Shown: piece by piece, positions 7,750 through 13,901 of the stretch
How the letters are laid out: every line of letters starts with the position of its first letter
Numbering within the stretch: the stretch's first letter is position 1
NCBI GenBank assembly: GCA_013140455.1
Contig: JABFSU010000044.1
Span: 1 to 64,000, forward strand
Direction: 5' to 3'
DNA: 64,000 nt
Source: Nitrospira sp.
Lineage (GTDB): Bacteria; Nitrospirota; Nitrospiria; Nitrospirales; Nitrospiraceae
Notes under the pieces: generated by a model
Databases searched by the model: none
Seen by the model: only the letters and a program-made list of their open reading frames with translations
What the model was told of the DNA's origin: nothing
Made by a program: the position numbers and the translations under genes

Positions 7750-8839
7750 GCACGTCTCCCTGGAACTTAGGCCTATCGGAGGCCTCGCACAACAAGCGCT
7801 GGAGCGCATCCTGCCCGCGCCTCACATCGGCCTGCAGCCGCAAAGCCCACCATGAATCGTCAGGCCTCAACAATGGGGCGAGCTTCCCGGCATCTTTTTC
7901 GGTCGTGAGCACCATCTCGACATTCGATCGCTGTGCCTGAGCACGCATACGATCAAGATCCTCGCTCCGATAGACGTAATGATCTGCAAACGCCGTTTCC
8001 CCAAGGACCTGCACGCCATTCTCCATGGCTAACCGGCGGAAGGACTCGCTGTTGCCGATCCCGCTGACCAGCCAGGCCTTCTTTCCCACGCACCAGTCCG
8101 CAATATGCCGTTCACCGGTCGTCACCGATACCACTTCATCGGGCCTGAAGATCACTTCTGCCTGAACCGGAGTTCCCGTCATGACCGCCTGCAATCGGGT
8201 ACGCACGGCTGCCACGTCCCGCTCAGAATCGGCGCGGGTGATGACGACCGCATCGGCACGACCCAGCCCGGCCAACGGCTCACGGAGGCGCCCGGCCGGC
8301 AACAGACCATCCAATCCCGTCGCATCCATCGCGTCAATCAACACCACATCAAGATCACGATACAGGGCGCGATGCTGAAAGGCATCGTCGAGCACGATCC
8401 AATCCACCGGCCATCGATCGAGCAGCCATCGTCCGACCGCTGCGCGATCCGCCCCGACGGCGACAATGGCTTTGGGACAGCGGTTCGCAATGAGATACGG
8501 CTCATCACCGGCCTCTGCCGGACCGACCAAGACTCGCTCCCCGTCCGATACCAACACCTGCGCCGCCGCCGATGTCCGCTTGTAGCCACGACTGAGCACC
8601 GCGACCCGGTGACCCTCCGCCTGCAACCACTCTGTCAACAGAATCACCATCGGGGTTTTCCCCGTTCCGCCGACGGTCAGGTTTCCGACACTCACCACTC
8701 GACAGGGCAATCGTACTTGTTTTTTCCATCCGCAGTCATAGGCCCACATCCTGGCCCGAACCACCAGTCCGTAGAGAAAGGCCGCCCCGCTCAGCCAGGG
8801 ACGAACCGGATCGCCTGGACGCAACAATGCCACGATCAC
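7742..8839 (-). CDS. lpxK: Tetraacyldisaccharide 4'-kinase LpxK
   Basis: LpxK phosphorylates the 4' position of the lipid A disaccharide at the inner membrane. Seen: the P-loop in VSVGNLTVGGTGKTPMVIL (about 55-73), SRGYKR, LLDRWPVDWIVLDDAFQH (about 140-160) and LTTEKDAGKL. The open frame reaches 9103, but the first 88 codons lie inside waaA and look like shadow. GTG at 8839 overlaps the waaA stop as GTGA and gives 365 residues, close to the family length. The hydrophobic segment after the start (WLSGAAFLYGLVV) is the expected membrane anchor. It sits between waaA and waaF in a continuous coupled run. Confidence 0.92.
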   Translation of the reverse strand: MIVALLRPGDPVRPWLSGAAFLYGLVVRARMWAYDCGWKKQVRLPCRVVSVGNLTVGGTGKTPMVILLTEWLQAEGHRVAVLSRGYKRTSAAAQVLVSDGERVLVGPAEAGDEPYLIANRCPKAIVAVGADRAAVGRWLLDRWPVDWIVLDDAFQHRALYRDLDVVLIDAMDATGLDGLLPAGRLREPLAGLGRADAVVITRADSERDVAAVRTRLQAVMTGTPVQAEVIFRPDEVVSVTTGERHIADWCVGKKAWLVSGIGNSESFRRLAMENGVQVLGETAFADHYVYRSEDLDRMRAQAQRSNVEMVLTTEKDAGKLAPLLRPDDSWWALRLQADVRRGQDALQRLLCEASDRPKFQGDVRA

Positions 8840-10176
8840 GGCCTCGCAATCACCGGCTGCGGCGCAGAACCGACAGGCCGGGAAGAAGGAGACTGCGCCT
8901 GAGTCAAACAGGCTTCGATCAAATCCAGACTCCGCTGCAGGGCGCCCTGATTGTCCACGACCGTTTGGCGTGCGGCTTCTCCAACCTGGCGACGGACCGT
9001 CGAATCCTCCAGCCATGCGCAGACCCTGCGCGCAAGATCGTCTGCACCGGACACTCGAACCGCACCGCCGGATTCCAAAAGAAGTGTCGCGATTTCTGCG
9101 CAATGATCCGTATAGGGGCCAAAAAGAACGGGCTTCCCCCAGACGGCCGGCTCCAGCAAATTATGCCCGCCCACGGGAATCAGGGTGCCGCCGACAAAGG
9201 CTACTGTCGCCTCATGATAGGCCCGTGCCAATTCACCTCGTGTATCTAGAATGACGACTCGCGCCCCGGATCCAACTGAATCGAGCCGGCTCTTGCGCAG
9301 CACCGGCAATCCCGCCGCCTGGATCATCGTCACGAGATCGGCCACTCGTTCGACATGGCGCGGGGCAAGCATGAGAACGGCATGAGGATGAGTGACGACG
9401 ATCTGCCGGTACGCCGCAACCAGCGCCTCCTCCTCGCCCGCATGCGTGCTCCCGGCGAGAAGGAGCGATTCGCCTTCACGCAGGCCCAACTCAGCACGCA
9501 ATGACGCATCAGCCGCCATCGTCGGCATGGGCTGATCGAATTTGATGTTGCCGGTTCTATGGACCCGACCGGCGTCGGCCCCCAGAGCCACAATTCGCTG
9601 CACATCACGCTCCGACTGCATGAGACACAGCGTAAGCGACCGCAGCACTGAACGATAAAACGAGATGAGGCCGGCGATATGCTGCCGGGCAAACGACCGC
9701 GACGACAACCGTCCATTCACCATGATCGTCGGCACCTGCCGGTCCCGTAAGGTCCATAAGAGATTCGGCCAGAGTTCGGTTTCGACAAACGCATACAGTA
9801 CCGGCTGCCACTGCGTGATCGCGCGGGACACGGCCCAGGGAACGTCGAGCGGGGCGTAGCGATGCTCGGCAATCCCAACCAGTCGTTGTTCAACCGCCTC
9901 GCGCCCCGTTTCCGTCACCGTCGAGACGATAAGCCGGTGATCGGGATGGTTGCGATGCAGTTCTTTCACTAACGGCGTGACCGCCACCACTTCACCGAGC
10001 GAGACGGCGTGGATCCAGATCAGGGGACGCCGCTCTCCGGATGGCTCCAGGACCGGACTGATGCGCAACCCGAACCGGTCGAGCAAGCCCCTCCGACACC
10101 GCTTCTTGGCGAGGAGAATGCAGAGGATGATCGGCGTAGCCAGAATGAGAAGAGTATTGTAGAGCAGTCGCCACAT
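8836..10176 (-). CDS. waaA: 3-deoxy-D-manno-octulosonic acid transferase (KDO transferase)
   Basis: 446 residues, GT30 family. An N-terminal membrane anchor (residues 4-24) is followed by IWIHAVSLGEVVAVTPL with the conserved glutamate, VSTVTETGREAVEQ, RNTGNIKFDQP-like MHRTGNIKFDQPM and the C-terminal VGGHNLLEPAVWGKPVLFGP. It transfers KDO from CMP-KDO to lipid A precursor. The start ATG lies 7 bases after the restored stop of the DUF374 gene. Slightly longer than E. coli WaaA (425). It could add one or more KDO units; the sequence does not decide. Confidence 0.93.
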   Translation of the reverse strand: MWRLLYNTLLILATPIILCILLAKKRCRRGLLDRFGLRISPVLEPSGERRPLIWIHAVSLGEVVAVTPLVKELHRNHPDHRLIVSTVTETGREAVEQRLVGIAEHRYAPLDVPWAVSRAITQWQPVLYAFVETELWPNLLWTLRDRQVPTIMVNGRLSSRSFARQHIAGLISFYRSVLRSLTLCLMQSERDVQRIVALGADAGRVHRTGNIKFDQPMPTMAADASLRAELGLREGESLLLAGSTHAGEEEALVAAYRQIVVTHPHAVLMLAPRHVERVADLVTMIQAAGLPVLRKSRLDSVGSGARVVILDTRGELARAYHEATVAFVGGTLIPVGGHNLLEPAVWGKPVLFGPYTDHCAEIATLLLESGGAVRVSGADDLARRVCAWLEDSTVRRQVGEAARQTVVDNQGALQRSLDLIEACLTQAQSPSSRPVGSAPQPVIARP

Positions 10177-10183
10177 GGGTTGG

Positions 10184-10875
10184 CTAGGATGCGACCTCCG
10201 CTTCAGCCTCAGCCGTCAGCCGGTTTAAGGTCGATTCCAATTCGACACGAGCGGACTCAAGCGCGGCGTCCTCCGCCTCGCGCGAAACCCAGATCGGGGC
10301 TCCCCAGAGGAAGACGCCGCGGGAAAACGGGTACGGCACCATGAAGCGATCCCAGCTCGAGAAGAGTTTTTTTTTGAGCAGGCAAAGCCGAGGGGAACAA
10401 TCGGCAGCCCCGTAGCCTTCGCCAATTGAATGACGCCTAACTTGGCCACCTGCCGCGGGCCTTTGGGACCGTCCGGAGTCACGACGACATCTTTACCCGA
10501 TCGCCCCAGCTTAATGAGCGAGCGGAGCGCCCCGGCGCCGCCCCTCGTACTCGACCCGCGGACGGCCTCATGGCCGAACCGGGCAATGATGCGGGCGATG
10601 ATTTCTCCATCGCCATGCTGACTGATCAACACATGCGACCCAGGCCCGCGATACCCGAACGGAATCATCAACTGCTGGGCATGCCAGAACGCCAGAATGA
10701 TGGATCGCTTTTCGCGATACAAGGCATCTACCGGCTCATAGCCGCGCTGCTCCAGCCGCATACTCCCTTTTATCCCACGGATGACCAGGGCTCCGAGCGG
10801 CGGCAGCACGGTAAACTTGAGCCACTGCTCCACCCGTTTCTTCAGACCCGGTCGATTCTGAGCAGTCTCACTCAT
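10184..10875 (-). pseudogene. DUF374 lysophospholipid acyltransferase-like protein, frameshifted at a poly-A run
   Basis: Residues 1-165 match DUF374 proteins associated with lipid A genes: FWHAQQLMIPFGYRG, SQHGDGEIIARII, RGSSTRGGAGALRSL and VVTPDGPKGPRQVAKLGVI, an acyltransferase-like fold. At 10367-10375 the coding strand has nine A. The uninterrupted frame then turns into arginine/serine-rich sequence and ends at 10225. Adding one A restores LFSSWDRFMVPYPFSRG and VFLWGAPIWVS, ending at a TAG at 10184-10186, 7 bases before waaA, for about 230 residues, the family length. So the gene is either genuinely frameshifted, read by slippage, or miscalled in a homopolymer. The likely role is an acylation step in the lipid A pathway; the exact substrate is unproven. 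Confidence 0.85.
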
Positions 10876-10909: not shown

Positions 10910-11034
10910 CAGGATGCTCAAAAAGGCCGTTCAGCAAGGCCGCAGCGAGTGAAGGACCGAAAGCGTACCCGCTTGGGTACGTTGAGGGTCTGAACGATGC
11001 GAGAACGCCGCTGGCGGCCTTTTTCAGCATCCTG
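10910..11034. repeat. Palindromic intergenic element with near-perfect terminal inverted repeats
   Basis: The left end CAGGATGCTCAAAAAGGCCG (10910-10929) matches the reverse complement of the right end CGGCCTTTTTCAGCATCCTG (11015-11034) with one mismatch. Inside is a second inverted repeat around 10961-10983 (AGCGTACCCGCTTGGGTACGTT). The element fills the whole gap between msbA and the DUF374 gene and abuts the msbA TAG. I recall similar dispersed elements from Nitrospira intergenic regions, but that is memory only. It could be a MITE/REP-like element or work as a terminator or mRNA stabiliser after msbA, since the stem is followed or preceded by a T/A run on either strand. Confidence 0.75.
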
Positions 11035-12780
11035 CTAGACATTGGTTACGTCTTGGAACTGCATCGCATGCAACCGCTGATAGAGCCCGTTGTGCCGCAA
11101 GAGCTCTTCGTGCGTGCCGATCTCGGCAACCCGGCCATGGTCCAACACCACAATCCTGGTGGCATTCTGCACGGTCGAGAGCCGATGAGCAATCACCACC
11201 GTTGTGCGGTTCTTCATCAAATTCGCCAGCGCCAGCTGCACGATGCGCTCCGACTCCGTATCGAGCGCGGACGTCGCTTCATCCAGAATGAGCAGCGGGG
11301 GATCGCGCAAAATCGCCCGGGCAATGGCCACGCGCTGACGCTCACCGCCAGACAGCTTCACCCCCCGTTCGCCGATCGTCGTCTGATAGCCCTCAGGCAG
11401 CCGGGAGATAAAATCATGCGCGTAGGCCTGCCTGGCGGCCTGCTCGATGTCCATCGGGCTCGCGCCCAGACGCCCGAAGGCGATATTGCTGGCCACCGTG
11501 TCATCGAATAACACCACATCCTGTGAGACGATGCCGATCTGCGTGCGCAACGACGCAAGGGTATAGGACTCTAACGGAGCGCCGTCGAGGAAAATCTGCC
11601 CGCTCGTCGGCTGGTAAAATCTTGGCAACAGACTCACCAGTGTTGATTTTCCGCTGCCGCTGCTCCCGACCAGCGCGACCATTTCGCCCGCACGAATGGC
11701 CAAGTCGACTCCCGTCAAAGCCGGCGTCGTCTGCCCGCTATAGCTGAGCGACACCCCGCGCAATTCGATCCGGTCGGAGATTCCCTGGCAAACGAGCGTG
11801 CCCCGGTCCTGCGCCTGTTCTGTCGCAAGGTCCAGCACTTCAAACACCCGCTCCGACGCAGCCAGGGCTTGTTGAATCAGATTGTTCGCTCCGGCCAGCT
11901 TTCGAATGGGCGTGTAGGCCATGAACATCGCCGTCAGAAACGAAAAGAAGGCGCCCGGCGTCATGCTGCCATGGAGAACCAGGTAACCGCCGTACCAGAT
12001 AATCACGGCCACGCCGACCACGCCGATCACTTCCATATGCGACGATCCGATCGACCAGACCTGGTTGGCCTTCAGCGTCGTACTCAGAAAAGCCCGGTTA
12101 CTCTGCTCGAATCGCGCGGCCTCCGCTTCTTCGCGACGGAACGCCTTGACCATCCGAATCCCGGACAGGGTCTCCTGCACGGTCGAGGACATATCCCCCA
12201 TCCGCTCCTGTCCGCTGGTGGCCAGGGCTCGAAGCCGGCGGCCCATGCGGGACATCGTCACGACGGCCAGCGGAATGACGATGATCGATAATCCCGCCAG
12301 TTGCCAATTCTGGTAGACAATGACACCGAGCATCACGATAAACGTCAACGCGTGCTGAAAAATATCTTTCAGGACATTGGAAACGGCATTCGCCATCAAC
12401 CCCACATCGTTCACGACGCGGGAGACCAACCGCCCGGAAGTATTGGCGTCGTGATAGCCGACCGGCAACCGCATTAAATGGAGAAACAGCGCTTGGCGAA
12501 TGTCGGCGATCACCCGATTGCCGACATAGTTCATGAGATAGGTCTGTCCGTAGCTGAAGAGGGCTTTGACGATCGACACCGCCAGGAGGGCAAGCGGGAG
12601 GACCAAGAGAAGGGATTCATTCTTCTCGATAAAAATACCATCCAGCACCGGTTTGACCAGCCAGGCATAGACGCCGGACAGCGCAGCCACCATGCCGGAG
12701 CAGACAATAGCTGCGATAAACCGGCCCCGATAGGGCCGGACATACTGCAGCAATCGAAGAAATCGATCTACGCTCGACAT
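11035..12780 (-). CDS. msbA: Lipid A export ABC transporter MsbA
   Basis: 581 residues, the family length. The N-terminal half is the six-helix exporter domain (YVRPYRGRFIAAIVCSG, LVKPVLDGIF, RVVNDVGLMANAVSNVLKD). The C-terminal ATPase has GSSGSGKSTLVSLLPRFY, LSGGERQRVAIARAI and LLILDEATSALD. MsbA flips core-lipid A across the inner membrane. Its ATG overlaps the lpxB stop by 13 bases, and it is followed by the palindromic element. The lipid A gene context separates it from the glycan flippase at 719. Confidence 0.93.
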   Translation of the reverse strand: MSSVDRFLRLLQYVRPYRGRFIAAIVCSGMVAALSGVYAWLVKPVLDGIFIEKNESLLLVLPLALLAVSIVKALFSYGQTYLMNYVGNRVIADIRQALFLHLMRLPVGYHDANTSGRLVSRVVNDVGLMANAVSNVLKDIFQHALTFIVMLGVIVYQNWQLAGLSIIVIPLAVVTMSRMGRRLRALATSGQERMGDMSSTVQETLSGIRMVKAFRREEAEAARFEQSNRAFLSTTLKANQVWSIGSSHMEVIGVVGVAVIIWYGGYLVLHGSMTPGAFFSFLTAMFMAYTPIRKLAGANNLIQQALAASERVFEVLDLATEQAQDRGTLVCQGISDRIELRGVSLSYSGQTTPALTGVDLAIRAGEMVALVGSSGSGKSTLVSLLPRFYQPTSGQIFLDGAPLESYTLASLRTQIGIVSQDVVLFDDTVASNIAFGRLGASPMDIEQAARQAYAHDFISRLPEGYQTTIGERGVKLSGGERQRVAIARAILRDPPLLILDEATSALDTESERIVQLALANLMKNRTTVVIAHRLSTVQNATRIVVLDHGRVAEIGTHEELLRHNGLYQRLHAMQFQDVTNV

Positions 12781-13901
12781 GCGTCTAATACCACCTGGGC
12801 GGCTCTGCGGGAAGCGCCGGGCTCTCCGAGACTGGCTTTCACCGCCTGCAGACTCCGTTTCATTTCATCGTACGCGGCACGATCATCCAACAGCCGTCGA
12901 GCTTCATCATACACGCTCGCGCCCGTCGCTTCATGCTGAATCAATTCCGTCACCACGGTCCGCCCGGCCACCAGATTGACCAGCCCGATCCACTTGACCC
13001 GGATCAACAGCCGGGCCAACCGATAGGTCAACCAGGAATGCGCCTGATAGAGCAGCACCATCGGCGTTCCGACGACCGCCGCCTGCAGCGTCGCAGTCCC
13101 CGATGCCACGAAGAGGAGATCGGCGGCCGCCATCACCTCACTCGCCTGTTCCGCCACTACCGTGACCACCGCCGAACTCTTCTGCAGCAGCGGCCGGACG
13201 AGATCATCGGCGATCGTCGACGCTTGCGCCATGAGAAATTGCGTCTTCGGGTCGTCGCGCAGCAATCGCTCTGCCGCTTCCAGGAGGATCGGAAGATGCA
13301 GTCGTACTTCAGCCGACCGGCTTCCCGGCAGCAAGGCGATGACCCGGCCTGTCGGCTGTAAACCAAATTGCTCGCGCAGCTTCGCCTGATCATAGTGCGG
13401 GGCGACGGCATCGAGCAGTGGATGACCGACAAACGTACAGGGCAATCCGACCTTACGATACAGCTCGGGTTCGAACGGAAGGATCACCATCACATGATCG
13501 ACACGCTGTTGAATATATTTCATGCGGCCAGGCCGCCAGGCCCAGATCTGCGGCGCGATGTAATAGATCACCCGCAGCCCGGCCGACTTGGCAAACCAGG
13601 CATAGCGAAGATTGAGTCCGGGATTGTCGATGAAGACCACGGCATCCCAGCGTTCAGATCTGAGCAGCCGGCGCATGGCGGCAAATCGGCGGATGATCGC
13701 GCGCAGGGCCGAGAACCCGACGATCCCCATCACGTCGAGATGCCCGAACCCTTCCACGAGCTGTACACCGGCAGACTTCATGGCAGCCCCGCCGACCCCC
13801 ACTAACCGCACAGTGGGATCGAACTCCTGAAGCGCCCGGGCCAGATTGGCGCCATGCAGATCACCGGAAGCCTCTCCGGCTACGATGAGAATTTTCGTCA
13901 T
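12768..13901 (-). CDS. lpxB: Lipid-A-disaccharide synthase
   Basis: 377 residues, GT19. Seen: KILIVAGEASGDLHGANLA (3-21), LVGVGGAAMKSAGV, HLDVMGIVGF, IYYIAPQIWAWRPGR (about 135-149), FVGHPLLD, LLPGSRSAEVR and SGTATLQAAVVGTPMVLLY. It joins UDP-diacylglucosamine and lipid X to form the lipid A disaccharide. A 109-base gap separates it from the oxidoreductase gene upstream; the gap has no gene and only a weak GAGTGA before the ATG. It is coupled to msbA by overlap. Confidence 0.95.
   Translation of the reverse strand: MTKILIVAGEASGDLHGANLARALQEFDPTVRLVGVGGAAMKSAGVQLVEGFGHLDVMGIVGFSALRAIIRRFAAMRRLLRSERWDAVVFIDNPGLNLRYAWFAKSAGLRVIYYIAPQIWAWRPGRMKYIQQRVDHVMVILPFEPELYRKVGLPCTFVGHPLLDAVAPHYDQAKLREQFGLQPTGRVIALLPGSRSAEVRLHLPILLEAAERLLRDDPKTQFLMAQASTIADDLVRPLLQKSSAVVTVVAEQASEVMAAADLLFVASGTATLQAAVVGTPMVLLYQAHSWLTYRLARLLIRVKWIGLVNLVAGRTVVTELIQHEATGASVYDEARRLLDDRAAYDEMKRSLQAVKASLGEPGASRRAAQVVLDACRA

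Follow-up and report, generated by a model that had tools for sequence, protein, structure and literature searches.

RNA polymerase slippage at a conserved run of nine or ten adenines probably yields the full-length form of an LpxJ-type enzyme, a likely lipid A late acyltransferase, in Nitrospira and related bacteria. In the 64,000-nucleotide stretch of Nitrospira DNA analyzed here (the window), the gene for this DUF374 protein is split at the run into two frames, and the same arrangement is kept by this chromosomal cell-envelope gene across 11 families of one phylum. Nitrospira, which is among the organisms concerned, comprises nitrite oxidizers that are central to the nitrogen cycle. A plain open reading frame (ORF) caller would call the gene short or broken in every run-bearing genome, hiding a likely lipid A acyltransferase.

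A DUF374 gene split in two frames within a lipid A gene array

The split gene, which is LpxJ-like, lies on the minus strand and is flanked by msbA (11035–12780, minus strand; TIGR02203 above cut-off), the next gene upstream, and waaA (8836–10176, minus strand; PF04413, best NCBIfam match below cut-off), the next gene downstream, which encodes a Kdo transferase. The same array contains lpxB upstream (12768–13901, minus strand; TIGR00215 above cut-off) and lpxK downstream. A frameshift at a nine-A run had been proposed in the original prediction, and the A9 run on the coding strand (T9 on the plus strand) at 10367–10375 indeed separates two frames. The zero-frame ORF (10225–10875, minus strand; PF04028, E 6.5e-28) encodes 216 amino acids. 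It starts at 10875 and meets the run after 167 codons, where it reads UCA AAA AAA AAC, and its last 47 residues come after the run, outside the family frame. Reading from the run in the −1 frame (10184–10375, minus strand) gives 63 amino acids that begin KKKLFSSWDRFMVPYPFSRG and have a family-like C terminus. The stop codon of this frame at 10184–10186 is separated from the waaA ATG (10176) by 7 nt, in agreement with the further claim that the other frame restores the family C terminus and ends just before waaA. Joined to one another, the two frames encode a full-length product of 230 amino acids.

No other A/T run of eight or more is found in the 64-kb window, and the 3.79-Mb genome holds five runs of nine, this one included. 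The expectation from base composition under independent positions is 0.10 for the window and, by the same formula, approximately 6 for the genome; hence, the occurrence of the run by itself is about what base composition predicts. The conserved run together with the conserved frame offset, described below, is far from chance. When the other four genomic A9 runs were read for open frames, one was found in a long, putatively coding open frame of 633 codons (L298; G000:C91:11667–11675), and three look leader, terminator-like, or intergenic.

Conservation of the run and the frame offset across the phylum

The upstream half of the gene, used as a query, found a match in 57 of 59 relatives. With the tail as query, 161 of 295 genomes in the phylum gave a match, and 147 of these were taken on for classification; the 14 matched genomes left out of the counts are G229 (family f11), G176 (f31), and others all belonging to f21. 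A9 recurs with the same offset among the first 30 loci, with L011 representing a case of an N in the sequence. Altogether, 172 genomes of the phylum contributed 173 classified loci, and in 134 of these loci (11 families, 32 genera), a run of 9 or 10 A is accompanied by a −1 offset, with 9 A in 123 loci and 10 A in 11. Another 36 loci, from 19 genera and 6 families, have no run and a single intact frame. Among the 173 classified loci, there was no clean locus with the run in frame and none out of frame without the run. The three remaining loci consist of G014, where an N in the assembly shifts the frame and accompanies the apparent in-frame state, and of G162 and G117, from which the upstream part is absent; the contig stretch of G117 is too short to hold this part of the gene. 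In a set of at least 119 named loci, chosen by a pattern containing A9 and overlapping with the other classified genomes, 117 show the −1 offset; the exceptions are L063, which is missing the upstream part, and L136, which is in frame by the same reading as G014 and sits on a contig equal in length to the N-bearing contig of G014.

The gene order msbA–DUF374–waaA is retained in 130 of the 131 loci that could be tested on both sides. On a tree of 92 upstream halves, which was rooted at the midpoint and has several open forks and a very long branch leading to G040, the run/offset state needs three changes. On the simple reading of this tree, the state would have arisen once near the base of the group, been lost in f4 and f6 (G300), and changed at f31. 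Family f4 has neither run nor offset, and two f4 rows nest by f2 in the same tree. Comparison with related genomes, which had been suggested as a check on the frameshift, did not reveal all-intact, run-free relatives in the window's own family; such genes are present only in other lineages of the phylum.

The 80 titles among the matches listed are mostly Nitrospira, Nitrospirae, or Nitrospirales. Five loci (L062, L086, L115, L129, and L131) carry Nitrospira-like copies with the same run under the titles Acidimicrobiia, Nitrospinota, Nitrosospira, and Gemmatimonadetes, and these are probably mislabeled or contaminated bins. L063 and L231 (G162) retain the run and the tail but not the upstream half, and the preceding sequence looks unrelated, pointing to a rearrangement or misassembly. 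In G209 and G213, two genomes of the window's family (1.7–1.8 Mb, completeness 98–99%), the tail query was unmatched, and the DUF374 gene may have been lost.

Both halves of the gene are under selection as protein

We compared column entropy by codon position in 87 aligned loci, namely all loci from the window's family that had sufficient flanking sequence. Upstream of the run, the mean entropy at codon positions 1, 2, and 3 of the zero frame is 0.46, 0.28, and 1.38 bits, respectively; downstream, the corresponding values in the −1 frame are 0.66, 0.53, and 1.32 bits, a contrast that was matched by 0 of 10,000 column shuffles. Variability inside the run is zero. Third-position variability thus tracks the zero frame upstream and switches to the −1 frame once the run is passed, so that the upstream half and the tail are each under selection as protein.

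The zero-frame continuation behaves differently: it extends for 4 to 91 codons past the run, with two loci running off the stretch, and a selected zero-frame tail was rejected since its length is not conserved. The most common lengths of this tail (11, 49, and 52) fit stops that are forced by coding in the −1 frame.

These observations bear on three explanations that dispense with a programmed frame change, two of which, a sequencing error and a true loss, had been offered as options in the original prediction. Homopolymers are generally error-prone in sequencing, which would favor an error in the reads or the assembly; yet the same offset recurs in 134 of 173 loci from 11 families, in separately assembled genomes that include single-contig ones (e.g., G022, G024, G039, and G196), and no locus has the run in frame save G014, which is explained by its N. 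This refutes the error, to which we assign a negligible probability. A true loss of function would account for the broken DNA frame, but a pseudogene would not keep run and offset in 134 loci, a tail under purifying selection in its own frame with clear codon-position periodicity, and the msbA–DUF374–waaA order, so that this option is likewise refuted and extremely improbable. Alternatively, the gene could be subject to phase variation, with mutation of the DNA run switching it on and off between cells. An A9 run is mutable in principle, and a gene for a surface lipid would be suitable for such control. However, a switching locus should appear in the ON state in some genomes, whereas 0 of the 134 are in frame, and the A10 forms arise with the offset unchanged. 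As ON and OFF run lengths were not seen among the genomes, we rejected phase variation as very unlikely.

The break precedes a predicted essential Trp-Asp pair of a likely LpxJ-type acyltransferase

Residues 75–141 of the zero-frame product match PF04028 (DUF374) with 96.6 bits against a cut-off of 26.8. In Rickettsia LpxJ (Rickettsia typhi), a characterized DUF374 protein, W60, H61, D86, D132, W172, and D173 are reported as essential, with activity lost when they are changed (PMC6148475). We matched these residues by motif and spacing against the published positions rather than by alignment with the Rickettsia sequence. Four of them have counterparts in the zero frame of the window, namely W64-H65 in FWH, D90 in QHGD, and D135 in PDGP; the last pair, W175-D176 (of 230 aa) in SWD, is found only in the −1 frame, after the run. 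The distances agree closely between the window and LpxJ: 25 residues from the histidine to the first aspartate in both, 70 versus 71 to the second aspartate, and 40 in both from the second aspartate to the tryptophan. The break sits just ahead of the Trp-Asp pair that matches W172-D173. The gene product is likely an LpxJ-type lipid A late acyltransferase.

A structure model of an intact relative (L047), computed with an alignment of 31 of the 36 intact loci, reached a pLDDT of 91.5. Its best matches in the PDB are PlsC (5kym, E 7e-6), LpxM (5knk, 1e-5), and PatA (5f2z, 1.3e-4), with TM about 0.5, and the model is predicted to have an acyltransferase (LPLAT-type) fold. Three strands (155–157, 165–167, and 172–177) and a helix (189–215) lie at or past the break position. 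Modeled alone without an alignment, the zero-frame product of the window gave a pLDDT of 32.8 and no usable model. Because the Trp-Asp block, the last strands, and the C-terminal helix are at or after the break and would be missing from the 216-aa form, this form should be inactive.

The DUF374 gene is present in one copy in 28 of 29 close genomes, and LpxL/LpxM-type genes (PF03279) are present in 7. By this PF04028/PF03279 search, the DUF374 gene appears to be the sole candidate late acyltransferase in most of the 29 close species, a point in favor of the full-length form being made. The argument is weaker in the window's own genome, which has two PF03279 genes.

A run length of at least nine is the conserved property

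To describe the site across lineages, we counted ten slots, the first of which is 21 bases ahead of an invariant TGG. All 134 shifted loci have A at slots 2–9; 123 of them also have A at slot 1 and 21 at slot 10, and no locus has another base at both of these outer slots. Thus, with eight slots invariant and one of the two outer slots always A, the conserved property is a run length of at least nine. In families f9, f15, and f18, the run is located one base later than in Nitrospira, and the frame offset is unchanged, a displacement directly accounted for if the constraint is on a minimum of nine A. In five of six f15 loci (L206–L210), the zero-frame stop is four codons past slot 1, leaving the short form with hardly any sequence beyond the run.

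Codon usage would permit alternatives to the run: in up to 110 codons upstream, AAA accounts for 183 of 495 lysine codons and TCA for 55 of 412 TCN codons. The one other conserved lysine column is occupied by AAG in 50, AAA in 34, and arginine in 3 of the 87 loci, and a conserved upstream serine column uses TCA in 6 of 87, whereas the TCA that precedes the run is found in 87 of 87. Synonymous variation is also low for about 9–12 bases on each side of the run (10353–10390), covering the codons GCC and TGC before it and CTC, GCG, and AGC after it. Such a constraint on the flanks is not needed by simple slippage.

In many bacterial genomes, selection against slippage becomes evident at a length of nine, which is also the length of the A run on which Thermus dnaX slips (PMC1088944), and this length is similar to that of the RNA-DNA hybrid in RNA polymerase, which is 9–10 bp (PMC5009743).

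Frame change by the polymerase or by the ribosome

In the mechanism that we favor, production of the full-length 230-aa form would require a programmed frame change at the A9–A10 run, the length of which is close to that of the RNA-DNA hybrid. RNA polymerase would slip on the run, and the fraction of transcripts with an altered run length would fuse the two frames and encode a working enzyme, with unslipped transcripts giving the presumably inactive 216-aa form. We infer here that slippage occurs and is transcriptional, that the long form alone is active, and that the effect sets a ratio of forms or a low enzyme dose. Transcriptional slippage was among the options of the original prediction and is the best supported of the three named there; what had been omitted is −1 ribosomal frameshifting, which the run also permits.

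In this main rival explanation, the mRNA is faithful and the ribosome makes the full-length enzyme by shifting on A_AAA_AAA or A_AAA_AAC/G (A_AAA_AAN), −1 slip heptamers that are both in phase inside the run. The synonymous constraint on both flanks would suit such a site. The direction of the shift, which is −1 in every one of the 134 shifted loci, also favors the ribosome under a published heuristic, whereby orthologs shifted in both directions are attributed to slippage and a single direction to ribosomal frameshifting (PMC3711429). As shifts in both directions are a heuristic and not needed for slippage, the slippage reading stands but is weakened. On the other side, 7 positions would suffice for a single heptamer, whereas nine or more A are kept; the placement of the run against the frame differs by one base among lineages; and ribosomal stimulators, which are common at such sites though not obligatory, are not apparent, with one GGAG as the only Shine-Dalgarno-like motif in the 134 loci and no unusual pseudoknot-free folding downstream in one locus from each of the 32 genera (mean z −0.32 to 0.35). 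A stimulatory hairpin found no support in the same downstream z values. We regard ribosomal frameshifting as a possible but less likely source of the enzyme. Transcriptional slippage is favored because at least nine A are kept, the run can shift by one base, and neither a Shine-Dalgarno-like motif nor an unusual fold accompanies it; a homopolymer of about nine or more, conserved at the frame transition, is present in all 134 shifted loci. Transcription and the ribosome could both contribute.

A separate question, orthogonal to the mechanism, is whether the shift has a regulatory role. It is possible, if on balance doubtful, that it has none, and that the shift simply gives enough enzyme and persists without selection for a ratio. 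The zero-frame tail of 4 to 91 codons agrees with this, as the short form then has no selected tail of its own. However, a single indel would undo the shift, yet no run-bearing locus is in frame, and the state is lost together with the whole run. More speculatively, and with a rather low probability in our view, the run could be an ancient, phylum-scale obligate slippage site at which the slip rate determines how much acyltransferase is active relative to dead, and hence outer-membrane acylation, with temperature or nucleotide supply perhaps acting on RNA polymerase and the dead form perhaps pairing with or inhibiting the active one.

The 7 nt that separate the tail stop from waaA in the window hint at translational coupling, but this spacing varies widely among loci, and we rejected coupling as a general feature. 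The median spacing is 71 nt, and 52 of 140 loci fall between −30 and +40 nt; two values of about −1,250 probably reflect wrongly placed starts.

Relation to known frameshifting systems

When 108 genomes were surveyed for 9A/9T runs in 2005, seven cases combined a conserved run with conserved overlapping frames, six of them from IS elements (PMC1088944). Among described systems, dnaX of Thermus thermophilus is likewise a chromosomal housekeeping gene with A9 in its coding strand and gives two products that differ at the C terminus (PMC1088944). The polarity differs, as the Thermus DNA encodes the long form and slippage leads to the short one, whereas the Nitrospira DUF374 DNA encodes the short form and the long one needs the shift. 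In tssM1 of Citrobacter rodentium, as in the DUF374 gene, the DNA frame is interrupted; there, slippage restores the full-length protein, and both forms are made (PMC4256274). That gene, however, has A11, serves secretion, and is described from C. rodentium and Yersinia pseudotuberculosis, compared with a lipid A enzyme in 32 genera here. In Shigella spa13, a C-terminal extension made by slippage meets the next gene (PMC5009743), unlike the DUF374 tail, whose distance to waaA varies and for which coupling is not general.

With LpxJ of Rickettsia and Epsilonproteobacteria, the protein shares the DUF374 domain and the FWH, HxD, PDGP, and WD motifs at matching or nearly matching spacing, and the window gene is situated among lipid A genes. 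In contrast, the portions of the LpxJ report considered here mention no frameshift (PMC6148475), and the Nitrospirota protein is a predicted acyltransferase only. A GeneTack cluster named 'Tetraacyldisaccharide kinase / acyltransferase' also represents a conserved frame transition in lipid A genes (PMC3711429). By its name, it is a kinase-acyltransferase pair, and it is read as frameshift and/or translational coupling; the GeneTack survey included one Nitrospirae genome. Our search found no published description of a frameshift in a Nitrospira or DUF374 lipid A acyltransferase gene, though an entry in the GeneTack database is possible.

The natural variants at the site, which include 9 or 10 A, two phases, and C, G, or A as the next base, would be useful to tell polymerase slippage from ribosomal slippage.

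The intergenic region between msbA and the DUF374 gene contains an inverted repeat (10910–11034) with 20-nt arms that are 95% complementary and 85 nt apart. The arm motif has 30 copies in the genome with at most one mismatch, versus 0 in a reversed control, and the repeat belongs to a dispersed palindromic repeat family.
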